This document shows positions 2,302-11,845 of a stretch of 64,000 nt of DNA, one piece after another. The translations under genes and the position numbers were made by a program. How positions within the stretch are numbered: position 1 is the stretch's first letter; each line of letters opens with the position of its first letter. The DNA is taken from assembly GCF_003856975.1 (NCBI RefSeq), contig NZ_CP033107.1, forward strand, positions 186,001 through 250,000. Direction: 5' to 3'. The notes below the pieces were generated by a model. The model was not told the origin of the DNA and ran no database searches. It saw nothing but the letters and a program-made list of their open reading frames with translations. This DNA comes from Plantibacter sp. PA-3-X8 (lineage in GTDB: Bacteria; Actinomycetota; Actinomycetes; Actinomycetales; Microbacteriaceae).

Positions 2302-2320
2302 AATATCCTATAGGATTATT
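2302..2320 (+). promoter_or_regulatory. Palindromic operator TCCTATAGGA upstream of the erythrulose kinase operon
   Basis: ATCCTATAGGAT at 2305-2316 is a perfect 12-base palindrome in an AT-rich patch within very GC-rich DNA, about 55 bases before the kinase start. The identical 10-base core occurs once more at 10968-10977, upstream of the opposite operon of the same cluster. The GntR regulator at 5582-6331 is the natural candidate to bind both; that is inference. Confidence 0.65.
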
Positions 2321-2372: not shown

Positions 2373-4103
2373 ATGACCAGGCTCTGGAACCGACCGGCCG
2401 ACTTCGCGGACGAGATGGTGGACGGCTTCGTCCGCGCCAACGGACGCTGGGTGCGCAAGGTCTCCGGCGGGGTGTCGCGCTCCACGAGGTCCGCGGAGCC
2501 GGAGGTCGCCCTCGTGATCGGTGGCGGATCCGGCCACTACCCCGCCTTCGCCGGCCTCGTCGGCCCGGGACTCGCCCACGGTGCGGCCATGGGCAACCTC
2601 TTCGCGTCGCCGTCCGCACACCAGGTGGAGAGCGTCGTCCGCGCGAGCGAGCAGGGTCGCGGCGTCCTCCTCAGCTACGGCAACTACGCCGGCGACGTGT
2701 TGCACTTCACCGCGGCGCAGGACGCCGTGAAGGCCGACGGCATCGACTGCCGCACCGTCACCGTGACCGACGACATCTTCAGCGCACCGCCCACCGAACT
2801 CGAGAAGCGGCGCGGGATCGCGGGCGACCTCACCGTCTTCAAGGTCGCTGGCGGTGCGGCATCGGGCGGGTACTCCATCGACGACGTCGAGCGCGTGGCG
2901 ATCCTCGCCAACGCCCGGACCCGTTCGATGGGCGTCGCGTTCTCCGGGTGCACGCTGCCCGGTGCCGACGAGCCGTTGTTCTCCGTGCCGGAGGGACGGA
3001 TGGCCGTCGGGCTCGGCATCCACGGCGAGCCCGGTATCGACGAGACCGACATCCCCTCCGCCGACGGGTTGGCGGAGTTGTTCGTGCACCACCTCCTGAA
3101 CGAGGCCGAGATCCCGGACGGCGTCACGCCGAACGGCGCACGCGTCGTCCCGATCCTCAACGGCCTCGGCTCCGTGAAGTCGGAGGAGCTGTTCGTCGTC
3201 TACGACCGCATCGCCTCCCTACTGGAGGACGCCGGGATCACCCTCGTCGATCCGCAGGTCGGTGAGTTCTGCACGAGCTTCGACATGGCTGGCGTCTCGC
3301 TCACCCTGCTCTGGGTCGACGAGGAGCTGGAGCGACTGTGGAGTGCCGCTGCGGACACGCCCGCGTTCCGCACGGGCGCCGTCGACTCCGGCGCGCTCGA
3401 GACCGTCGCCGCCGACGACACCGAGGACGTCGCCTTCGTCGTGCCGGACGCCTCGCCCGAGTCGCAGGAGTCGGCGGCCGTCGTGGCCGACGCGATCTCC
3501 GCGATCCAGGAGCTCCTCGCGGAGCACGCGGACGAGCTGGGACGCCTCGACGCCATCGTCGGCGACGGCGACCACGGCATCGGCATGGACCGCGGGGCGA
3601 CCGCTGCCGCCGCCGAGGCCGAGCGCCTGCGTGAGGCCGGTGCCGGCGTCGCGACGCTGCTCGACCGCTCGGGCGACGCCTGGTCCGACCGCGCCGGTGG
3701 CACCTCGGGCGCTCTGTGGGGCGTCATGCTCCGCACCCTCGGCGAGCGCCTCGGCGACGCCGAACGCCCGACCGCCACCGCCGTGAGCGAGGGCGTGACC
3801 GCAGCGAAGGACGCCGTCATGCGCTATGGCAAGGCCTCCGTCGGCGACAAGACGCTCGTCGACGCCCTGGTCCCGTTCGCCGACACGCTCGCAGAACGCG
3901 TCGCCGCCGGCGACGACCTCTCCACCGCCTGGACCACCGCGGCGGCGGCAGCAACCGCTGCGGCACACGACACGGCCGGTCTCATGCCCGGCATGGGTCG
4001 CGCCCGCTCGCACGGCTCGAAGGCCGTCGGCGTCGAGGACCCGGGAGCCGTCTCCCTCGCCCTCATCGTCGAGCGTGTCGGTACCCTCCTCACCGAGCAC
4101 TGA
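2373..4103 (+). CDS. lerK: Fused DhaK-DhaL sugar kinase, probable L-erythrulose kinase
   Basis: 576 residues. The N-terminal DhaK domain (about 1-330) shows VIGGGSGHYPAFAG and the GIHGEPG segment near residue 217 that holds the His forming the covalent bond with the ketose substrate. The C-terminal DhaL domain (about 375-576) has the ADP-metal signature GDGDHGIGMDRG near residue 395 and the GGTSGALWG segment. Both domains are in one chain, as in ATP-dependent dihydroxyacetone and tetrulose kinases. Neighbouring isomerases of the LerI/DerI type point to erythrulose rather than dihydroxyacetone; D-erythrulose kinase (DerK) cannot be excluded. ATG 2373 is chosen because AGGAG lies six bases upstream. 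Confidence 0.85.
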   Translation: MTRLWNRPADFADEMVDGFVRANGRWVRKVSGGVSRSTRSAEPEVALVIGGGSGHYPAFAGLVGPGLAHGAAMGNLFASPSAHQVESVVRASEQGRGVLLSYGNYAGDVLHFTAAQDAVKADGIDCRTVTVTDDIFSAPPTELEKRRGIAGDLTVFKVAGGAASGGYSIDDVERVAILANARTRSMGVAFSGCTLPGADEPLFSVPEGRMAVGLGIHGEPGIDETDIPSADGLAELFVHHLLNEAEIPDGVTPNGARVVPILNGLGSVKSEELFVVYDRIASLLEDAGITLVDPQVGEFCTSFDMAGVSLTLLWVDEELERLWSAAADTPAFRTGAVDSGALETVAADDTEDVAFVVPDASPESQESAAVVADAISAIQELLAEHADELGRLDAIVGDGDHGIGMDRGATAAAAEAERLREAGAGVATLLDRSGDAWSDRAGGTSGALWGVMLRTLGERLGDAERPTATAVSEGVTAAKDAVMRYGKASVGDKTLVDALVPFADTLAERVAAGDDLSTAWTTAAAAATAAAHDTAGLMPGMGRARSHGSKAVGVEDPGAVSLALIVERVGTLLTEH

Positions 4104-4160
4104 ACGTCCGATCCGCCGACAGACGACCCGCTCCCTGAACAAACGCCACGCTCCCCGAAG

Positions 4161-4230
4161 CGACACCCCGTCCCTGAAACGACACCCCGGTCCCTGAAAC
4201 GACACCCCGGTCCCTGAGCTTGTCGAAGGG
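4161..4230. repeat. Three tandem ~20-base units ending in a dispersed repeat copy
   Basis: Units of the form CGACACCCCGGTCCCTGAAA begin at 4161, 4180 and 4200 (the first is one base short). The last unit runs into CCTGAGCTTGTCGAAGGG, ending at 4230, a copy of the repeat family also found at 6336-6485, 11012-11135 and 19653-19676. It separates the kinase and isomerase genes of one operon. It looks like slippage amplification of the repeat's outer half. Confidence 0.65.
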
Positions 4231-4250
4231 CCAGCAACGAAAGGCACACC

Positions 4251-4712
4251 ATGACCCGCACCTGGCGAATCGTCATCGGCTCCGATGACGCCGGTTACGA
4301 CTACAAGGAGATCCTCAAGCGCGACCTCGAGGCGAGCGACCTGGTCGCCTCCGTGGTCGACGTCGGGGTCGACGCCGACGGCCACACCAACTACCCGACC
4401 GTCGCGGTGACCGCGGCCGAGATCGTCGCCCGCGGCGAGGCCGACCGCGCGCTGCTCATCTGCGGCACGGGCCTCGGCGTCGCGATCGCGGCCAACAAGG
4501 TCCAGGGCATCCGAGCCGTCACCGCGCACGACGGCTTCTCCGTCGAACGCGGGGTGCTCTCGAACGACGCCCAAGTGCTCTGCATGGGCCAGCGGGTCGT
4601 CGGCATCGAACTCGCCCGCCGCAACGTGCGCGAGTGGCTCACCTACGAGTTCGACGCCTCGAGCGCGTCGAACGACAAGGTGCAGGAGATCAGCGCATAC
4701 GAAGCGTCCTGA
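4251..4712 (+). CDS. derI: RpiB/LacAB-family isomerase, probable D-erythrulose 4-phosphate isomerase
   Basis: 153 residues, full family length. The start [17 protein letters not shown] matches the RpiB phosphate-binding region, and [20 protein letters not shown] is the RpiB active-site block with the catalytic Cys. In tetritol and apionate pathways this family (EryI/DerI) interconverts D-erythrulose 4-phosphate and D-erythrose 4-phosphate, which then enters the pentose phosphate pathway. Position between a DhaK-type kinase and a TIM-like isomerase supports that role over ribose 5-phosphate isomerisation. Its TGA overlaps the next ATG (TGATG). Confidence 0.8.
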
Positions 4713-5515
4713 TGTCAGGACGTCCCAGACTCGTCGGCGTGAGCCTGAAGATGTACTTCGGGCACGCGCAGACGCTCGACTGGTGCTCGGTCGTCGCGGG
4801 GGTGTCGGCCGAGCACCACGCACTCCGATCCGGCGCGGCGGAGCTGTTCGTCATCCCCGGATACCTCTCGGTGACCGGCGCGGTCGAGCGGCTCCGCGGC
4901 GTCGCAGCCGTGGGGGCTCAGGACCTCGCGACCGAGGACACCGGGGCGTTCACCGGCGAGGTGAGCGGCGCCGAGCTCCAAGAGGTCGGCTGTGAGGTCG
5001 TCGAGGTCGGGCACGCGGAGCGGCGCCGACTGTTCGGTGAGACGCCCGATGTCGTCCGCGCGAAGACGACCGCCGCGCTCCGCAACGGTCTCGCGCCGGT
5101 GCTGTGCATCGGCGAGGCCGAGCACCGAGACGCCGAGGTGGCGGCCGCGGAGTGCGTCGCACAGCTCGACGACGCTCTGGCAGGGGCGGTCGCCGCCGGG
5201 ATCGTGGGCCGCGTCATCGTCGCCTACGAACCACACTGGGCCATCGGCGCCACCGAGGCCGCGAGTCCAGCCCACATCCGCACGGTGTGCCTCCGGCTGC
5301 GCGGCCACCTCGACGCGCTCGCCGCGGCCGGGCACATCGACACCTCCTCAGCCGTCATCTACGGCGGGAGCGCCGGACCCGGCCTGCTGACCACGATCGG
5401 CGACGCGGTCGACGGGGTCTTCCTCGGCCGCTTCGCCCACGATCCGGCAGCCCTCTCGCTGGTGCTCGACGAGGTGGCCGGCCTCGACCGCGCGGGCTCC
5501 GACCTGCCGCGATGA
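4712..5515 (+). CDS. lerI: Triosephosphate-isomerase-like L-erythrulose 1-phosphate isomerase
   Basis: 267 residues. It has the three TIM catalytic residues in altered surroundings: Lys in VSLKMYFG (classical TIM has NWKMN), His in VEVGHAERR, and Glu in AYEPHWAIGA, plus the phosphate-binding YGGSAGPG. The SLKMYF variant is typical of the EryH/LerI branch, which converts L-erythrulose 1-phosphate into D-erythrulose 4-phosphate. The product is the substrate of the isomerase encoded just upstream. The start overlaps the upstream stop by one base, indicating translational coupling. It is not the housekeeping tpiA. Confidence 0.85.
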   Translation: MSGRPRLVGVSLKMYFGHAQTLDWCSVVAGVSAEHHALRSGAAELFVIPGYLSVTGAVERLRGVAAVGAQDLATEDTGAFTGEVSGAELQEVGCEVVEVGHAERRRLFGETPDVVRAKTTAALRNGLAPVLCIGEAEHRDAEVAAAECVAQLDDALAGAVAAGIVGRVIVAYEPHWAIGATEAASPAHIRTVCLRLRGHLDALAAAGHIDTSSAVIYGGSAGPGLLTTIGDAVDGVFLGRFAHDPAALSLVLDEVAGLDRAGSDLPR

Positions 5516-5581
5516 CGCCTGGAGGCCCCGTAAACTGGTCCTCGACGATCATCGCGGCCGCTCGACCGGAGGTTCCCCTCC

Positions 5582-6331
5582 GTGACGACGCCTCGAGCAC
5601 ACCCTTCGGAGGCTGCCGTGGTTGATGCCGTCTTCCCGCTCGGCGCCTCCGCCTCGCTCGAACGCCGCGGTCTGCGCGACCGCGTCTACGAGCTGGTGCT
5701 CGACATGCTCCTGAGCTCCGGTATCGAACCGGGTGCCCGCCTGTCGATCGACGCGATCGCCCGCGACCTCGACGTCTCGCCGACGCCGGTCCGCGAGGCG
5801 CTCGTCCAGCTCGAGCGCACCGGCCTCGTCACCCGGGTCACCCACAAGGGCTACCGGGTGGCACCGCCGCTCGCCGACGACCAGCTCGAGTCGCTGTTCG
5901 ACGCCCGCATCGTGCTCGAGAGCGGCGCCACCGCGCTGGCCGCCGCCCACGCCGACGAGCTCGTCCCGGCCCTCGAGGTCGCCCTCGCACAGCACGTCGA
6001 GATGACCGCCAGGGTGCGCGCCGCGGCGTCGGCCGGCGAGATCCCCGTCGCACTCCTCCGCGAATACTTCGCGGTCGACTGGAACTTCCACCACCTCATC
6101 TTCGAGGGCACCCGCAACCCCTTCCTCCTCGACATGTCCGAGGGCATCTCCACCCGCGTGCACCGCATGCGCCAGACGGTCGAGACGGGCGTCACCGACG
6201 CCGACCAGGCGGTCGTCGAGCACCGCGCCATCCTCGACGCGTTCTCCGACGGCCCCGAGGCCGCCGCGGCGGCCATGCGCTCGCACATCGAGCTCGTGCG
6301 CACCCGCGCCCGCAGCGACGCCGAGCACTGA
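5582..6331 (+). CDS. GntR-family (FadR/FCD type) transcriptional regulator
   Basis: 249 residues. The winged helix-turn-helix (about residues 25-95) includes LSIDAIARDLDVSPTPVREALVQLERTGLV, followed by an all-helical FCD ligand domain with the pattern of Asp/His residues that bind a metal and small acids (FHHLIF, EHRAILDAF). GTG start with GGAGG nine bases upstream. It is 67 bases after lerI on the same strand, so it is likely the local regulator of the cluster. A sugar acid or sugar phosphate effector is plausible for this subfamily. Confidence 0.88.
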   Translation: MTTPRAHPSEAAVVDAVFPLGASASLERRGLRDRVYELVLDMLLSSGIEPGARLSIDAIARDLDVSPTPVREALVQLERTGLVTRVTHKGYRVAPPLADDQLESLFDARIVLESGATALAAAHADELVPALEVALAQHVEMTARVRAAASAGEIPVALLREYFAVDWNFHHLIFEGTRNPFLLDMSEGISTRVHRMRQTVETGVTDADQAVVEHRAILDAFSDGPEAAAAAMRSHIELVRTRARSDAEH

Positions 6332-6335
6332 GCCG

Positions 6336-6485
6336 CCCTTCGACAGGCTCAGGGACCGGGATCTGACAGCCGCAGGGCCGGGCACACACCCTTCGACAGG
6401 CTCAGGGACCGAGTCCTCCGGTCCCCGAGTCGCCCTGCTCCGGTCCCTGTGCCGCCCCAAACCGGTTCCTGAGCCTGTCGAAGGG
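6336..6485. repeat. Three copies of a dispersed repeat, inverted, acting as likely bidirectional terminator
   Basis: CCCTTCGACAGGCTCAGGGA occurs at 6336 and again at 6389. The reverse orientation, CCTGAGCCTGTCGAAGGG, ends at 6485. The facing copies can pair into a long stem between the convergent regulator and MFS genes, so this is a plausible terminator for both. The same repeat occurs elsewhere in the window (4213-4230, 11012-11135, 19653-19676). Confidence 0.75.
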
Positions 6486-6541
6486 CGCAGAACGGGGCCG
6501 ACCGCCTGAGCGATCGACCCCGTCCGGGTGTTGCGTCGTGA

Positions 6542-7915
6542 CTAGTGCGCCGTGCGGTTCGCCGTCGTCTCGAGCAGCTCGTCCGCCTTCGCCCCACGGA
6601 AGAACCGGGTGCAGTAGAGCATCGCGGCCGCAAGGAAGGCGAACACCCCGAGCGAGACCACGCCCCACACGCCGCTGTCGGTCGGCACGCTCTCGTTGAT
6701 CCCGGTGCGCATGATCGGGGCGACGAAGCCGCCGAGGTTACCGAGCGAGTTGATGAGGCCGATGCCCGCCGCTGCAGCCGTGCCGGTGAGGAACGCCGTC
6801 GGGTAGGCCCACGTGATCGGCCCGACCGAGAGGAAGCTCGCCACCGCGATGGTGATGAACAGGATGCCGAGGATCGGCTGGTTGTTCGCGCCTGCCCAAG
6901 CGGAGGCCAGGATGAAGACGCCGGTGGAGATGTAGAACATCGTTCCCCAGGTGCGACGACGGACGACCGTGTTCGCGTTCCGACCCACGTAGTAGCAGGC
7001 GAACAGACCCACGAGCCACGGGATGGCCGCCACGAGACCGACCTGCCAGCCGACGTCCTGGCCGATGAGGTTCGCCACCTGCTGCGGGAGGTAGAACGTC
7101 GTGCCGTACACCGCGATCTGCAGGCAGAAGTAGATGATGGTGAAGTACCACACCTTCCAACTCGTCATCGCCTTCGCGATACCGGTCGGGCCGTCCGACT
7201 GCCGCACGGTGTCCTCGCGTTCCATCGCGGCCGTCAACGAGTCCTTCTCCTGTTGATCCAGCCACTTCGCCTGTTGTGGCGAGTTGGTGAGGAAGTAGAG
7301 CGCTGCGAAGCCGGCAAGGACCGCGAGCATGCCCTCGGCGAAGAACATCACCTGCCAGCCGTGCCACGGGGTCAGGGCGTCGCCGAAGCTGATGAGGCCA
7401 CCACTCAGCGGGGCGCCGAGCATCTGCGAGAATGGCTGCGCCAGGTAGAAGATCGAGAACATCTGGACGCGGACCTTGTTCGGGAACCACTCCGACAGGA
7501 ACATGATGACGCCGGGGAAGAGCCCGGCCTCGGTCACGCCGAGCAGGAACCGCAGGACGATGAACATCGTGTCGTTCGTCGTGAAGGCGAACAGGGCGGC
7601 GACGATGCCCCAGGTCACCGCGATGCGGGCGAGCCAGAACCGGGCGCCGAACTTCTTCAGCAGCAGGTTGCTCGGGATCTCGAAGATCGCGTAGCCGATG
7701 AAGAAGATGCCGGCCCCGAGGGCGAAGGCACCGTTCGAGATGCCGCGGTCGACGCTGAGCGCCTCCTCGGCGAAGCCGACGTTCGTGCGGTCCAGGAACG
7801 CGACGAAGTACAAAATGACGAGCATCGGCATGAGGTGCTTCGACGCCTTGCGGATCGCCGACTTCAGCGCCGGATCGTTGGTCGATCCGATCGCCGGCGG
7901 ATTGGGTGTGGACAA
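6542..7915 (-). CDS. MFS transporter, anion:cation symporter (ACS) type
   Basis: 457 residues with about 12 hydrophobic segments and a central cytoplasmic loop (about residues 205-245). The start LVILYFVAFLDRTNVGFA is the classic ACS-family signature of proton-coupled carriers for sugar acids and other organic anions (tartrate, glucarate, hexuronates). RFLLGVTEAGLFPGVIMFLSEWFP is the matching loop 2-3/TM5 region. TTG start with AAGGAG seven bases upstream. Clustered with sugar-acid enzymes, so it probably imports the pathway substrate as an anion. Last gene of the minus-strand operon. Confidence 0.9.
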   Translation of the reverse strand: MSTPNPPAIGSTNDPALKSAIRKASKHLMPMLVILYFVAFLDRTNVGFAEEALSVDRGISNGAFALGAGIFFIGYAIFEIPSNLLLKKFGARFWLARIAVTWGIVAALFAFTTNDTMFIVLRFLLGVTEAGLFPGVIMFLSEWFPNKVRVQMFSIFYLAQPFSQMLGAPLSGGLISFGDALTPWHGWQVMFFAEGMLAVLAGFAALYFLTNSPQQAKWLDQQEKDSLTAAMEREDTVRQSDGPTGIAKAMTSWKVWYFTIIYFCLQIAVYGTTFYLPQQVANLIGQDVGWQVGLVAAIPWLVGLFACYYVGRNANTVVRRRTWGTMFYISTGVFILASAWAGANNQPILGILFITIAVASFLSVGPITWAYPTAFLTGTAAAAGIGLINSLGNLGGFVAPIMRTGINESVPTDSGVWGVVSLGVFAFLAAAMLYCTRFFRGAKADELLETTANRTAH

Positions 7916-7982
7916 GACACTCTCCTTTGAGATGACTGGTGCGGGTGGGTGCTGCTGGCGCTACTGCTGCTGCTGCTGCTGG

Positions 7983-8093
7983 TCAGGAGACCATCGAGGG
8001 GACGATCATCCAGAGGCCGATGCCGACGAAGACGACGCCGAGACCGAGGAAGATCAACCGGGATTTGGTCCACTGACCGGTGAGGTGCTGCAT
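7983..8093 (-). CDS. Small single-pass membrane protein, 36 residues
   Basis: A short frame between the SDR and MFS genes on the same strand. It begins MQHLTGQWTKSR, continues with a hydrophobic stretch of about 22 residues (LIFLGLGVVFVGIGLWMIV) and ends PSMVS. The basic residue before the stretch predicts an N-in, C-out orientation. GGAGC lies about seven bases before the ATG. A (CTG)5 run follows its stop codon. The pattern resembles small subunits or companions of transporters, and it may assist the ACS carrier just downstream. No family recognised. Confidence 0.6.
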   Translation of the reverse strand: MQHLTGQWTKSRLIFLGLGVVFVGIGLWMIVPSMVS

Positions 8094-8129
8094 GGTGCTG
8101 CTCCGTTCGCTCGTGGTGCGTGTGGTGGA

Positions 8130-8903
8130 TCAGTGCATGTAGAGGCCGCCGTCGACGTTCAGCGTCTGACCGGTGACGAAGCCGGCGTCCTCACTGATGA
8201 GGTAGGCGATGGCGGCGGCGATGTCGCGTGGGGTGCCGATGCGCGGCAGGACGCCGTCGGCGGCCATGGCCGTCTTGCGCTCCTCGGTGAGGGTGCCGCC
8301 CATGATGTCGGTGTCGATGGGTCCGGGCGAGATGGCGTTGACCGTGATGCCGTCGTGGCCGAGCTCGCGGGCGACGCTGCGGGTGAAGCCGATCACGCCG
8401 GCCTTCGCCGCCGAGTAGGCCGTCTTGCTGAAGGTGCCGCCGCCACGCTGGGCGGAGACGGACGACAGGCTGACGACGCGACCGACGCCGTTCGACACCA
8501 TCGACTCGACCGCACGGCGGGTCGTGTAGTGGACGCCGTTGAGGTTGATGTCGATGACGCGCTTCCACTCGTCGGCACTCACCTCGAGGTAGGGCACGGG
8601 TGAGGCGACACCCGCGAGGTTCACGAGGGCGACGAGCTGTGGGAGGGCGGCTTCGAGCGCGTCGAACGCGGCACGCACCTGCGCCTCGTCGGCGACGTTC
8701 GCGCCGGCGCCGGCCGCCTGCACCCCGTGCTGCTCCGCGATCTCGGCGGCGACCGCCTGCGCCGCAGCCTCGTCGAGGTCGATGATCCCGATGTTCCAGC
8801 CGAGTTCGGCGAGGTGGTGGGCGGAGGCACGACCGATGCCGCGCGGGGAGGCTGCGCCGGTGAGGACGACGGTCTTGGATTCGGGGAAGCTGGTGGCGGT
8901 CAT
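8130..8903 (-). CDS. Short-chain dehydrogenase/reductase (SDR)
   Basis: 257 residues, standard classical-SDR length. It has the NAD(P)-binding TGAASPRGIGRA near the N-terminus, an Asp after the second strand (IIDLDEA) favouring NAD, catalytic Ser in VVSLSSVSAQ and the YSAAKAG Tyr/Lys pair, then SPGPIDTDIM and the C-terminal GQTLNVDGG. The substrate is unknown. Within this cluster it could oxidise a sugar alcohol or aldose-derived lactone before the main 3-dehydrogenation step. AAAGG precedes the ATG. Confidence 0.85.
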   Translation of the reverse strand: MTATSFPESKTVVLTGAASPRGIGRASAHHLAELGWNIGIIDLDEAAAQAVAAEIAEQHGVQAAGAGANVADEAQVRAAFDALEAALPQLVALVNLAGVASPVPYLEVSADEWKRVIDINLNGVHYTTRRAVESMVSNGVGRVVSLSSVSAQRGGGTFSKTAYSAAKAGVIGFTRSVARELGHDGITVNAISPGPIDTDIMGGTLTEERKTAMAADGVLPRIGTPRDIAAAIAYLISEDAGFVTGQTLNVDGGLYMH

Positions 8904-8978
8904 GGCCGGCCTTTCTGCGTGGGAGTGGTGAAGTCGGTGTCCGATCGAGCCGGACGGTGCGCTCGGTCGGCGCGGCGC

Positions 8979-9932
8979 TCAGTTGATGGGTGCGGGGCCG
9001 AGCTCGTCCATGAGCTGCTTGATCGCGACGTAGGCCTTGTTGCGGTAGGCGATCAGCTCGGGGGTGCGGTCGGCCGGGACGTCGAGGTAGCCGGCACCCG
9101 ACTTGGTGCCGAACTTGCCGGCGTCGACGAGCTCCTTGAGGGAGTCCGGCGTGGCGAACCGCTCGGGCCACCGGGTCTGGAGCGAGGCGTAGCAGAACGA
9201 GTACACGTCGAGTCCGGCCATGTCGGCGATCGCGAAGGGACCGAAGACGGGGAGCCGGAAGCCGAAGGTGGTGCGGACGATCGTGTCGATGTCCTCGGGC
9301 GTCGCGACGCCCTCCTCGACGAGCTGCGTCGCCTCGTGGAACAGCGCGTACTGCAGGCGGTTGAGCACGAAGCCCGTCGCGTCCTTGACGCGGGCGGTCT
9401 CCTTGCCGGTCGCTGCGACGATCTCCTCGACGGTGGCGATCGCCGCATCGGCGGTGGTCTCGTGCGGGATGAGTTCGACGCCGGGGATGAACGGGGCCGG
9501 GTTCGAGAAGTGGACGCCGAGGAACCGCTCCGGGTTGGTGACGGCCTCAGCGAGCGAACCGATGAGGATGGTCGAGGTGTTCGAGCCGATGATGGCGTCG
9601 GGCGAGGCCGCGGCGCTGATGCGACGGAGGGTCTCGTGCTTGATCTCGATCTTCTCGGGGACGGCCTCCTCGATGAAGTCGGCTCCGGTGACGGCCTCCT
9701 CGATGGACGCTGCGGGCGAGACGTTGGCGCGGATCCGCTCCACGGCGTCGGCAGGGAAGAGTCCGTCGGCGACGAACTGCTCGGCCTCGGCGATGAGGCG
9801 GTCGTAGTTCTTGCGCGCGATCTCCTCGGAGATGTCGGCGATGCGGACGGTGGCGCCGGACAGCGCGAGCACCTGGGCGATGCCGCCGCCCATGTACCCC
9901 GATCCGACGACGGCGATGGTGTGTGTGGTCAT
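8979..9932 (-). CDS. 3-hydroxyacyl-CoA-dehydrogenase-like NAD-dependent sugar-acid dehydrogenase
   Basis: 317 residues. Rossmann domain with VGSGYMGGGIAQ, followed by EAVPEKIEIK, SNTSTI and the active-site His in GVHFSNPAPFIPG. The C-terminal helical domain includes KDATGFVLNRLQYALFHEA. Length and motifs match short single-domain enzymes of this superfamily that act on free acids (L-gulonate 3-dehydrogenase, L-carnitine dehydrogenase) rather than CoA esters. Oxidation at C3 of a sugar acid would give a 3-keto acid for the TIM-barrel protein upstream. AGGAG lies nine bases before the ATG. Confidence 0.8.
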   Translation of the reverse strand: MTTHTIAVVGSGYMGGGIAQVLALSGATVRIADISEEIARKNYDRLIAEAEQFVADGLFPADAVERIRANVSPAASIEEAVTGADFIEEAVPEKIEIKHETLRRISAAASPDAIIGSNTSTILIGSLAEAVTNPERFLGVHFSNPAPFIPGVELIPHETTADAAIATVEEIVAATGKETARVKDATGFVLNRLQYALFHEATQLVEEGVATPEDIDTIVRTTFGFRLPVFGPFAIADMAGLDVYSFCYASLQTRWPERFATPDSLKELVDAGKFGTKSGAGYLDVPADRTPELIAYRNKAYVAIKQLMDELGPAPIN

Positions 9933-9959
9933 GATGAAGCTCTCCTGTGGTCGTCTGGA

Positions 9960-10913
9960 TCAGGCCTGCGGCAGCAGGGTCCTGATGTACTTCTGGTTGG
10001 TGGAGCACATGCCGAGGCTGTCGCCGCCGTAGTGCTCGGCCAGGATGATGCCGTTGAAGCCGAGCTCGACGGCGTCGCGGAAGACCTGGCGGTAGTTGAT
10101 GAGCCCGGCCTCCATGGTGGAGGGCACGGACGTCGCCCAGGTGCCGTCGGCCGCCTCGTCGCGGGTGTAGTTCTTCACGTGCATGTAGTTGGCGTACGGC
10201 AGGGTCTTGGCGAACAGCTCGCGCCAGTCCTCCACCGGGCGGTGCAGGCGGATGAGGTTCGCGACGTCGGGGTTCAGACCGACGTTGTCGAGCCCGACCT
10301 CCTCCACGAACCGCACCGCGCTGTCGGCGGTGCCGAGGTAGGTGTCCTCGTAGAGTTCGAGGGCGAGTGGCAGCCCGACGTCGGCCGCGTGCTTGCCGAG
10401 CTCGCGGATGCGGCTGACGGCGGCGTTCCAGACCTCGGGGTCGTCGGGGTCCTTCGGGCCCTGGGCGGTCCAGAACCAGAGCGCCTTGCGCTGGGCCTCG
10501 CTGAAGGGCTGGTGCAGGCCGGTGGAGAAGACCTGCATCCCCCACTCGGCGGCGGCGTCGATCGTGCGGTGCGCGTACTCGAGGTTGCGCTCCTCGTGGC
10601 CCGGCATGATCACGCTCTGCCGCTGCAGGTGGACGGACGGGACGCCGACGCCGTGCGACTTCGCGATGGCGAGGAACTCGTCGCGACGGGACGGTTCGAG
10701 GTCGGCGGGTCGGACGTGGCTGTCGGGCAGTTCGGCGAGGGTGAACCCGACGCCGGCGACCTGCGCGAAGAGGTCGTCCCAGGCTTCGGGTTCCGCGTCG
10801 TGCAGGGAGACGCCGTTGCGGTCGACGGGTGGGATGCCGTGCAGGCAGGTGGCGATGGGCCAGGTGTCGGCGGTCCATCGGGGGGTCGACGCGGTCGCGG
10901 TCGTATCCGTCAT
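9960..10913 (-). CDS. Xylose-isomerase-like TIM barrel protein, possible 3-keto-acid decarboxylase
   Basis: 317 residues. Sugar phosphate isomerase/epimerase (AP endonuclease 2) fold with the usual metal ligands spaced along the barrel: Glu in LALELYEDT, Asp/Asn in GLNPDVAN, His in NYMHVKNY and Glu in IILAEHYGG. Enzymes of this fold act as epimerases, 2-ketoacid isomerases (OtnI) or, in apionate catabolism, as the 3-oxo-isoapionate decarboxylase OiaC that yields L-erythrulose. The erythrulose kinase and LerI in this cluster make the last role attractive, but it cannot be proved from motifs. First gene of the minus-strand operon. Confidence 0.75.
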   Translation of the reverse strand: MTDTTATASTPRWTADTWPIATCLHGIPPVDRNGVSLHDAEPEAWDDLFAQVAGVGFTLAELPDSHVRPADLEPSRRDEFLAIAKSHGVGVPSVHLQRQSVIMPGHEERNLEYAHRTIDAAAEWGMQVFSTGLHQPFSEAQRKALWFWTAQGPKDPDDPEVWNAAVSRIRELGKHAADVGLPLALELYEDTYLGTADSAVRFVEEVGLDNVGLNPDVANLIRLHRPVEDWRELFAKTLPYANYMHVKNYTRDEAADGTWATSVPSTMEAGLINYRQVFRDAVELGFNGIILAEHYGGDSLGMCSTNQKYIRTLLPQA

Positions 10914-10960: not shown

Positions 10961-10980
10961 AAAAAGATCCTATAGGAAAT
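10961..10980 (-). promoter_or_regulatory. Second TCCTATAGGA operator, upstream of the sugar-acid operon
   Basis: ATCCTATAGGAA at 10967-10978 lies in an AT-rich island about 55 bases upstream of the TIM-barrel start codon, the same distance as the copy before lerK (2305-2316). GTAAAGCGTTTCC follows at 10982-10994. The shared position and sequence indicate co-regulation of the two outer operons. Confidence 0.65.
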
Positions 10981-11011
10981 AGTAAAGCGTTTCCACGAAT
11001 GCGCAAGGGCA

Positions 11012-11135
11012 CTTCGACAGGCTCAATGACCGGCGGAGGGGAGGCTCGGTGACCGGCGGCGGGGAGGCCCGGTGACCGGTGGGGCGGGAGGCGAGCTTCC
11101 GGGGCGAATCCGACCGGTCACCGAGCCTGTCGAGG
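11012..11135. repeat. Degenerate inverted copies of the dispersed repeat
   Basis: CTTCGACAGGCTCAATGACC begins at 11012 and the opposite orientation CACCGAGCCTGTCGAGG ends at 11135. Between them the GGTGACCGG element is repeated three times. It occupies the gap after the LON gene and before the sugar-acid promoter, and can fold into a long hairpin, so it may end LON transcription. Confidence 0.6.
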
Positions 11136-11149
11136 TGCGAAGACGGGGC

Positions 11150-11845
11150 TCAGCCGCCGAGGATGTCCCAGTCCTCGTCGTCCGCGTCGGCGATGCCGCC
11201 CGCGATGAACGCTTCGCCGGCCTCGGTGGCGCGATCGCGCACACCGACCAACAGCTCTTCCAGCGAACCGGCCGAGAGGAACCGCATCTGGTCGAGCTCG
11301 CTCACCGGGGCGATGCCCGCGAGCTGCCACGACGACTCCAGCGGGTCGTCGGCGAGCTCCACGACCGAGGCCCACTGCTGCTCGCTGAACTCGCTGGCCA
11401 CGGCCAGCGAACGCCGCACCGCCGCCTCGGTCTCGTCCCGCAGCTGCTCCCAGCGCTCGTCCCACTCCAGGTCGTCGAGCGTGCGGATCTCGGCGCGTGG
11501 GTACGGGTCGTCCGGCAGCCAGTCGGTCACCTCGAAGCGCTGACCGCCCTCGGCGATCACCGCCACGAAGCCCTCGCCGCCGTCGACCTCGACGATCTCC
11601 GCCACGGTCCCCGTCCGGAAGCGGTGCTCACCGCCTCCCGTCTCGCGCCCGCGCTCGATGAGCACCACGCCGAACGCCGGGTCCTCGGCCTCGAGCAGGT
11701 GGGCGAGCATGGTCAGGTAGCGCTCCTCGAAGAGCCGCAGGGCGAGCGGCATGTGCGGGAACAGCACAGAGCCGAGCGGGAACATCGGCAGCTCGAGGAC
11801 CGGGAGGCCGGACGCCCAGGGCTCGGCACTGAAGGAGTCGGTCAT
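11150..11845 (-). CDS. LON substrate-binding domain protein (protease-less)
   Basis: 231 residues. The N-terminal two thirds match the LON substrate-binding fold: LPVLELPMFPLGSVLFPHMPLALRLFEERY is at residues 14-43, followed by a Tyr/Met-containing helix and GRETGGGEHRFRTGTVAEIVE. There is no AAA+ or Ser-Lys protease domain, so it cannot degrade proteins itself. Such stand-alone proteins are common in actinobacteria and their function is poorly known. Acidic C-terminus. It stands alone, with the 11012-11135 repeats downstream. Confidence 0.85.
   Translation of the reverse strand: MTDSFSAEPWASGLPVLELPMFPLGSVLFPHMPLALRLFEERYLTMLAHLLEAEDPAFGVVLIERGRETGGGEHRFRTGTVAEIVEVDGGEGFVAVIAEGGQRFEVTDWLPDDPYPRAEIRTLDDLEWDERWEQLRDETEAAVRRSLAVASEFSEQQWASVVELADDPLESSWQLAGIAPVSELDQMRFLSAGSLEELLVGVRDRATEAGEAFIAGGIADADDEDWDILGG

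Follow-up and report, generated by a model that had tools for sequence, protein, structure and literature searches.

The D-apionate pathway, said to have been described by Carter et al. in 2018 (Nat Chem Biol 14:696), reportedly proceeds via ApnO, OiaC, LerK, LerI and DerI, and the tetritol catabolism of Mycolicibacterium smegmatis was reportedly treated by Huang et al. in 2015. The reactions of LerI and DerI have been given and LerK has been described (PMC10733421), and a Curtobacterium strain has been isolated on L-erythrulose (PMC12780249). In the animal L-gulonate route, CRYL1, a member of the 3HCDH family, is the L-gulonate 3-dehydrogenase and is followed by the 3-dehydro-L-gulonate decarboxylase C11orf54, a DUF1907 protein (PMC12435205). 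Compared below with these systems is a cluster of eight genes in a stretch of 64,000 nucleotides of Plantibacter sp. PA-3-X8 (hereafter the window), which corresponds to C1:186001-250000 of a one-contig genome of 4.08 Mb. The bacterium belongs to a group associated with plants; its closest named relatives are Plantibacter, with a dehydrogenase 93-94% identical and, in L016 (Plantibacter sp. VKM Ac-1784), a barrel 99% identical (L and G numbers designate loci and genomes). The cluster consists of two operons facing each other, which we are inclined to read, with rather more confidence than doubt, as one GntR-controlled unit that would take an L-pentonate through a 3-oxo acid and L-erythrulose to D-erythrose 4-phosphate. 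The open reading frame list and the profile matches place the eight genes at the coordinates and in the families that the first-pass annotation had given them; with two operator copies, they are the following.

2306..2315: palindromic operator TCCTATAGGA, putative GntR site, 57 bp 5' of the kinase start
2373..4103, plus strand: fused DhaK-DhaL kinase (Dak1+Dak2), read as an L-erythrulose kinase, LerK-like, from profile matches and paralogy
4251..4712, plus strand: RpiB-like isomerase (LacAB_rpiB), from profile matches and paralogy
4712..5515, plus strand: TIM-like isomerase (TIM), its ATG overlapping the RpiB stop, from paralogy
5582..6331, plus strand: GntR/FCD transcription factor, putative regulator of both operons, from a domain match
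6542..7915, minus strand: MFS transporter, read as an organic-anion carrier, from a domain match
8130..8903, minus strand: FabG-like SDR dehydrogenase, accessory second dehydrogenase, possibly for a C3 epimer, from a domain match
8979..9932, minus strand: single-domain 3HCDH-type enzyme (3HCDH_N+3HCDH), read as an L-pentonate 3-dehydrogenase, from its domains and conserved site residues
9960..10913, minus strand: xylose-isomerase-like TIM barrel (AP_endonuc_2) of the 5tnv family, read as a 3-oxo-pentonate decarboxylase, from sequence and fold matches
10968..10977: second copy of the TCCTATAGGA operator, 54 bp 5' of the barrel start

The kinase, RpiB, TIM and GntR genes make up the plus-strand operon and the barrel, 3HCDH, SDR and MFS genes the minus-strand one, where 27 bp separate barrel and dehydrogenase, 75 bp dehydrogenase and SDR, and 214 bp SDR and MFS; each operon would form a single transcript. 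The best NCBIfam match of the MFS protein is TIGR00893 (D-galactonate transporter), at 261 bits against a cut-off of 395, and the label ACS for it comes from the first-pass annotation.

The locus resembles the D-apionate pathway in its kinase and its TIM-like and RpiB-like lower half, in the presence of a xylose-isomerase-like barrel and in L-erythrulose as the expected C4 intermediate, but a 3HCDH-type enzyme stands in place of the PF16896 protein ApnO and the barrel is of a different subfamily and has an additional loop around residues 133-158. With the M. smegmatis tetritol route it would share L-erythrulose 1-phosphate and D-erythrulose 4-phosphate, isomerised to D-erythrose 4-phosphate, whereas entry would be from an acid with loss of CO2 and not from a tetritol. 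The animal L-gulonate route has the same succession, in which a 3HCDH-type enzyme oxidises an aldonate at C3 and the 3-oxo acid then loses CO2 to become a ketose; unlike in animals, the acid would be C5 and not C6, the barrel is not a DUF1907 protein and the product would be phosphorylated by DhaKL. Non-phosphorylative use of a pentonate would be common to this locus and to Weimberg/Dahms-type routes (PMC6336799), which pass through 2-keto-3-deoxypentonate, whereas there is no dehydratase among the eight genes of the cluster and one of the carbons would leave as CO2. The window barrel belongs to the same family as PDB 5tnv (M. smegmatis, with magnesium), the title of which states no function.

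The lower half of the proposed route is best placed by its paralogues; the genome carries three copies each of the DhaK-type kinase, RpiB and TIM. The window kinase is 64% identical to its paralogue in a second, apionate-like cluster and 38% to the genome's DhaK; the corresponding values are 79% and, for the genome's third RpiB, 33% for the RpiB-like protein, and 63% and, for TpiA, 37% for the TIM-like protein. DhaKL, TIM-like and RpiB-like genes thus stand in one operon and are distinct from the housekeeping copies, and the L-erythrulose type that had first been given to this lower half is upheld by these paralogues, 63-79% identical. The TIM-like enzyme would fit best with L-erythrulose 1-phosphate. 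The RpiB-like protein may work like DerI, although we claim no DerI membership for it: it scores 135 bits against the cut-off of 240 of the DerI equivalog NF051858, a model whose short name ends in Rhiz, and its paralogue in the apionate-like cluster likewise falls under the cut-off, at 144 bits.

That second cluster (L108; C1 ~1,017,000-1,027,100) comprises genes for a GntR/FCD regulator, an MFS transporter, DhaKL, RpiB, TIM, a barrel of 265 aa, a PF16896 protein, an SDR and a relative of ApnL. PF16896, which we take to be the family of the apionate oxidoisomerase ApnO, occurs once in the genome, at C1:1023682 (~1.02 Mb), and in 18 of 39 genomes searched; the absence of an ApnO-like gene from the window, as noted in the first-pass annotation, is borne out by this search. 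The PF16896 protein matches 5t57 and also KARI_N, and the ApnL relative (D-apionate lactonase, NF049900) reaches 171 bits against a cut-off of 750, over residues 25-233 only; no ApnO- or OiaC-named model was matched in the profile search. The gene content makes this a likely D-apiose/apionate cluster. Apionate-like and window-type upper halves therefore coexist in one genome, on paralogous lower halves, because the kinase and isomerases of the two clusters are 63-79% identical and the other copies 33-38%. The window thus contains an upper half of a parallel kind, which most likely feeds the same L-erythrulose pathway. Elsewhere, a PdxA-type version of the cluster adjoins ApnO- and OiaC-like genes (L126), and L056 has ApnO- and ApnL-like genes no more than 10 kb away from its barrel.

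In a survey of 299 genomes of the window's family, Microbacteriaceae to judge by the named relatives, the barrel was found in 74 and the dehydrogenase in 63 at E ≤ 1e-60, and the barrel occurs in 36 of the 85 sampled genera of the family. It is scarce at phylum level (3/198 genomes, the window's own included), and is also present in Sinomonas, Arthrobacter, Brevibacterium, Pseudonocardia, rhizobia and others. All 34 barrels of at least 75% identity have the dehydrogenase within 200 bp; within 6 kb, it accompanies one of two barrels of 60-75% identity, 19 of 43 of 45-60% and none of four below 45%. Seen from the other side, the barrel lies within 6 kb of 48/50 dehydrogenases of at least 70% identity, 6/9 of 55-70% and 0/8 below 55%. 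The pairing of the two genes exceeds what chance would give. The content of the loci was examined in 80 named loci, the best-scoring of at least 563 and fetched with the barrel (ten did not reach the full 20 kb), in which gene presence was counted by tblastn at identity thresholds of 35-55%, set by gene by the analyst. Of these, 68 contain the dehydrogenase, never more than 250 bp away from the barrel. Also counted were GntR (73 loci), the kinase (66), the SDR (61), TIM (60), MFS (56) and RpiB (51); LtnD-like genes (12), PdxA (10) and a DUF1537 kinase (9) are rarer. A further 36 loci were chosen mostly for oddness (barrel without dehydrogenase, separated or divergent pairs) and not at random, 34 coming from the matches of the family survey and two, L106 and L107, from the phylum-level search. 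In some loci, the names given to transporter parts, LacI genes and glycosidase-like genes come in part from inspecting the beginnings of their sequences by eye.

The two operons are further tied together by TCCTATAGGA, a perfect palindrome common to both promoter regions. With at most one mismatch allowed, the window has only these two matches (shuffled sequences average 0.21, and 1/100 has at least two), and across the whole 4.08-Mb genome the exact palindrome is found at just two places and a reversed control pattern at none. Of the 80 named loci, 71 carry the exact palindrome, at 110 sites in total where base composition would predict 0.27. Sorted by the closest gene with an assignment, 65 of these sites precede the barrel, 36 the kinase, 3 an aldolase, 2 PdxA, 1 DUF1537 and 1 MFS, and 2 are without assignment. 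Of the 36 other loci, 12 have exact sites, 14 altogether, of which 9 go with the barrel, 3 with the kinase and 1 each with the dehydrogenase and MFS. By hand tally, an exact site accompanies 80 of the 92 loci with a recognisable GntR gene (69/73 named, 11/19 others) and three of the 24 without one (L020, L085, L141). Since the palindrome stands before both operons and nowhere else in this genome, and since nearly all copies in relatives stand there too, the operons look like one regulon, as expected from the single catabolic unit initially proposed.

In the 299 family genomes, a 12-letter form of the site is found in 63 and its reversed control in 4; it is present in 49/74 genomes with the barrel versus 14/225 without (hand tally). 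Fourteen sites away from barrel matches were examined. In L158 and L160 the site precedes an SDR gene 45-46% identical to the window SDR, which ties the SDR to the regulon, and in L163 it stands before a GntR-barrel-kinase-RpiB-TIM array. The site lies near a more distant GntR gene (33-41% identical to that of the window) in L154, L156, L161 and L164 (the last in a genome without barrel match), near an MFS gene (26-27%) in L159 and L161, before an aldo-keto reductase gene (29%) in L162 and beside a gene that looks glycosidase-like by eye in L155 (site 5020) and L165 (site 5024), one of these two genomes being without barrel match; nothing was recognised around the site in L157 and L167. In L166 it is found between GntR and PdxA genes. 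This last locus (L166:4190-8346) reads GntR, operator, PdxA, MFS, one further open reading frame and DUF1537 kinase, in a genome without barrel match, and may be a neighbouring system of the PdxA type that shares the operator. The site is thus tied to the pathway in the window genome, and elsewhere in the family related GntR regulators seem to use it too; a wider group of GntR regulators may share it.

Turning to the upper half, the dehydrogenase consists of 3HCDH_N and 3HCDH domains, and its residues S120, H141, N144, E153 and N191 are invariant in 13 sequences. These we take to be the Ser/His/Asn/Glu catalytic site of 3HCDH enzymes, so that the protein has the domains and site of the CRYL1 type; a predicted structure (mean predicted local distance difference test score 76) was used for the fold only. 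Its nearest solved relatives are the FHMPC dehydrogenase (4om8, E 9.8e-52) and hydroxybutyryl-CoA and hydroxyacyl-CoA dehydrogenases, CRYL1 (3f3s, E 1.6e-34) being further away. The specific likeness to L-gulonate 3-dehydrogenase proposed at first must be abandoned, since 4om8 and the hydroxybutyryl-CoA dehydrogenases outscore CRYL1, and this score order also rules out an L-gulonate 3-dehydrogenase proper. Some databases call the clade 3-hydroxybutyryl-CoA dehydrogenase. Clustering of the upper enzymes with an unrelated known pathway, which the first-pass annotation had named as a refuting outcome, was looked for in part, and the reading was not refuted: no curated NCBIfam cut-off is reached by the dehydrogenase (25 of 26 matches listed) or by the barrel (4/4). 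A part in vitamin B6 breakdown was considered and rejected: the dehydrogenase scores 222 against 500 bits for FHMPC, the SDR 185 against 325 as pyridoxal 4-dehydrogenase, and no other B6 gene was recognised among the eight.

The dehydrogenase beside the barrel is exchanged in a number of loci. Twelve named loci lack it; nine of these carry PdxA (five beside the barrel), among them L094 and L095 with an SDR 53-54% identical that adjoins the barrel, and of the remaining three, L065 is cut by a contig end and L071 and L081 have neither. Among the 36 odd loci, 18 contain 3HCDH and 11 a PdxA relative. The slot after barrel-kinase-RpiB is occupied by PdxA in L125, L126, L127, L128, L130, L133 and L134 and by 3HCDH in L107, L138, L139 and L142. 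Rhizobial plasmids make up most of 93 barrel records, and all three annotated records examined show the order GntR-PdxA-TTT transporter-barrel-DhaKL. The PdxA and 3HCDH families both oxidise beta-hydroxy acids, and their exchange therefore supports a C3 oxidation. An SDR also stands beside the barrel where a 3HCDH gene is missing (L094, L095 and L121, the last with neither 3HCDH nor PdxA). The 3HCDH enzyme thus has PdxA-type and perhaps SDR-type exchange partners, and the SDR of the window probably serves as an additional dehydrogenase, acting on the opposite C3 epimer or on a neighbouring compound. The carrier varies as well, being of the MFS, TTT or ABC type, or GntP (gluconate:H+ symporter, 345 bits, over the cut-off) in L106; MFS, TTT and GntP carriers, the ABC kind excepted, usually move organic anions.

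For the barrel, the sole sequence match among solved structures at E ≤ 0.001 is 5tnv, with E 1.6e-77 over residues 12-315, and Foldseek returns it at E 2.7e-33 with 42% identity. A barrel nearly like 5tnv by eye, in L106, adjoins a 3HCDH gene (56%) and the GntP carrier, opposite a TIM-RpiB-kinase-GntR array. As had been supposed, the upper half is unlike ApnO/OiaC: the window barrel is 29% identical over 119 aa (26% in a three-sequence alignment) to the ApnO-adjacent, OiaC-like barrel of the same genome, which serves as a proxy for the reference OiaC, and the two differ by the loop mentioned above. E186, D216, H245 and E293 are kept in both and are putative metal ligands, roles that we presume for them. 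OiaC, the barrel of the apionate route, is a decarboxylase; because of this analogy, and of the constancy of the barrel when the dehydrogenase changes, we infer that the window barrel may carry out the decarboxylation.

Put together, these elements suggest the following course, each catalytic step of which we infer. The MFS transporter would import an L-series five-carbon aldonate, the C3 hydroxyl of which the 3HCDH-type enzyme would oxidise with NAD+ to give a 3-oxo-pentonate; the metal-dependent barrel would then remove C1 as CO2 to yield L-erythrulose, and the kinase and the two isomerases would convert L-erythrulose to D-erythrose 4-phosphate. By bookkeeping, C3 oxidation with loss of C1 turns a pentonate into erythrulose and the four L-pentonates into L-erythrulose, and the C2 configuration is lost at decarboxylation, so that C2 epimers converge. 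As to the substrate, we weakly rank L-arabinonate first, a choice that we would sooner expect to be wrong than right, then L-ribonate, L-lyxonate and L-xylonate. The substrates of 3HCDH enzymes are L-beta-hydroxy compounds, and bookkeeping gives this configuration to L-arabinonate and L-ribonate and the opposite one to L-xylonate and L-lyxonate, which would suit PdxA or the FabG-like SDR. The LtnD-like genes of 12/80 loci hint at acids from the breakdown of ascorbate, whose documented members include L-lyxonate and L-xylonate (PMC11066805). A broader version, tentative and in our view doubtful, would see here a third non-phosphorylative L-pentonate route beside Weimberg/Dahms, in which 3HCDH enzymes would act on the L-beta-hydroxy epimers and PdxA or FabG-like SDR enzymes on the D-beta-hydroxy ones, all feeding one barrel and one lower half with up to four diastereomers, L-lyxonate and L-xylonate included.

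Arabinose enters through the surroundings of the barrel. A GH51 alpha-L-arabinofuranosidase gene lies within 10 kb of 5/54 dehydrogenase-linked barrels versus 0/29 others (hand tally), where about 0.6 would be expected at random under uniform placement and an approximate gene count of 136; the association was spotted before it was counted, which tells against it. The five genomes (G244, G256, G312, G336, G365) represent four genera, and in L140, L142, L145 and L151 the GH51 gene comes with ABC importer parts and a LacI-like gene. In L090:6090-14791, barrel and dehydrogenase stand between araB-araD-araA and a GH51 gene with a gene of the aldonolactone-oxidase family.

Several observations weigh against the route as we read it. 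The link to arabinose is indirect, because araA is kept in all five GH51 genomes and no L-arabinose 1-dehydrogenase was recognised in the four GH51 loci examined; these four loci are also without the window-type GntR and operator. A route replacing AraBAD is rejected by the presence of araA in all five. The LtnD-like and DUF1537 kinase genes (12/80 and 9/80 loci) are of the L-threonate type and point also to C4 acids. The RpiB-like protein exceeds the cut-off of TIGR02133 (actinobacterial ribose-5-phosphate isomerase, 206 versus 168). Twelve loci with GntR have no exact site (L064, L074, L078, L079, L121, L122, L124, L126, L130, L135, L139 and L150), a one-mismatch copy being found upstream of a tested gene in L064, L078, L079, L121 and L150, and the operator is not private to the pathway in the wider family, several of the 14 sites adjoining other GntR or MFS genes. 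PdxA enzymes can lead to decarboxylation themselves, and in the PdxA clusters a dedicated decarboxylase would then seem superfluous. Finally, L118:478-8815 has LtnD-like, kinase, RpiB, TIM, GntR, MFS, SDR and dehydrogenase (90%) genes with two operators and no barrel in the cluster, the only other barrel match of that genome (42%) lying elsewhere; in that genome the route is broken or can do without the barrel.

Some of these points bear on the nature of the barrel, which could isomerise or epimerise its substrate, in the manner of OtnI or as a 3-epimerase acting on the ketose or the oxo acid, with decarboxylation occurring spontaneously or by the dehydrogenase and the remaining route unchanged. 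This we consider unlikely, yet the most serious competitor: after 5tnv, the next folds returned by Foldseek, themselves a point against a decarboxylase, are the Art22 isomerase, a hydratase and ketose 3-epimerases, the sub-cut-off NCBIfam matches include D-psicose 3-epimerase and hydroxypyruvate isomerase, and the PdxA-type partners, the barrel-less L118 and the LtnD-like and DUF1537 neighbours at some loci go in the same direction. However, the barrel scores 16.5 bits against 353 for TIGR03234, a model of hydroxypyruvate isomerase only and not OtnI-specific; it also stays when the dehydrogenase is exchanged, as a common step would, although the loci were fetched with the barrel, and the analogous barrel of the apionate route is a decarboxylase. 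The threonate-type neighbours, together with the families after which the kinase and the TIM-like enzyme are named, could also fit a tetronate, whose 3-oxidation and decarboxylation would give dihydroxyacetone, with DhaKL as dihydroxyacetone kinase and the TIM-like enzyme as triose-phosphate isomerase. We regard this as improbable: the RpiB-like isomerase of the operon would have no role, and the kinase and isomerases are far closer to the apionate-like cluster than to DhaK, TpiA and the third RpiB.

That same lower half, and the four putative metal ligands found in both barrels, would be accounted for by a variant of the D-apionate pathway in which the 3HCDH enzyme performs the oxidoisomerisation of ApnO and the barrel the OiaC step. 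Such a variant is very improbable, as the genome already has an ApnO-/OiaC-/ApnL-like cluster, the barrels are of different subfamilies and apionate chemically has no C3 hydrogen to oxidise. Hardly any weight, and slightly less still, goes to a dehydrogenase that uses a CoA thioester or takes part in the degradation of vitamin B6, with an incidental position in the cluster: CoA-type enzymes and the FHMPC dehydrogenase do give the top family scores, but these scores are far under curated cut-offs, none of the cluster's genes was recognised as one for CoA esters or B6, and the linkage and the common operator speak for a part in the unit. The conversion of an L-pentonate via L-erythrulose is the reading that we retain, and both the shared operator and the apionate-like cluster of the same genome strengthen it.

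A few observations stand apart. Inspection by eye shows an interspersed repeat of the form CCTTCGACAGGCTCAGGGACCGG in intergenic runs beside the two operons, at 6332-6541 and at about 10990-11150 of the window, where it occurs in both orientations, and also in the apionate-like cluster (L108, 3787-3952). In G362, a genome without dehydrogenase match, a distant barrel (39%) lies ~3 kb from araA (G362:C1:1045930-1050139). The genes iolB and iolD are found near the barrel locus in L060:6926-9816 (adjoining; Clavibacter) and L081:17060-19878 (some kb off; Pseudonocardia); a link to myo-inositol was dismissed, as it would rest on these two loci.

No account of the cluster was found in the literature, as searched by titles and abstract openings, with subscription papers mostly outside this scope, so that prior publication is possible. 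C3 oxidation followed by decarboxylation is known for an animal C6 acid and, as far as could be seen, is apparently not yet assigned to these widespread bacterial genes. The route would be a variation on the succession of aldonate, 3-oxo acid and ketose, joined to DhaKL and the L-erythrulose lower half, and not a new category. The proposal is directly testable, since a putative operator and all eight genes are known. If true, it would provide a function for a barrel family with a solved structure, 5tnv, and for a single-domain 3HCDH clade, and it would connect sugar acids of plant origin with the pentose phosphate pathway by a link that releases CO2.

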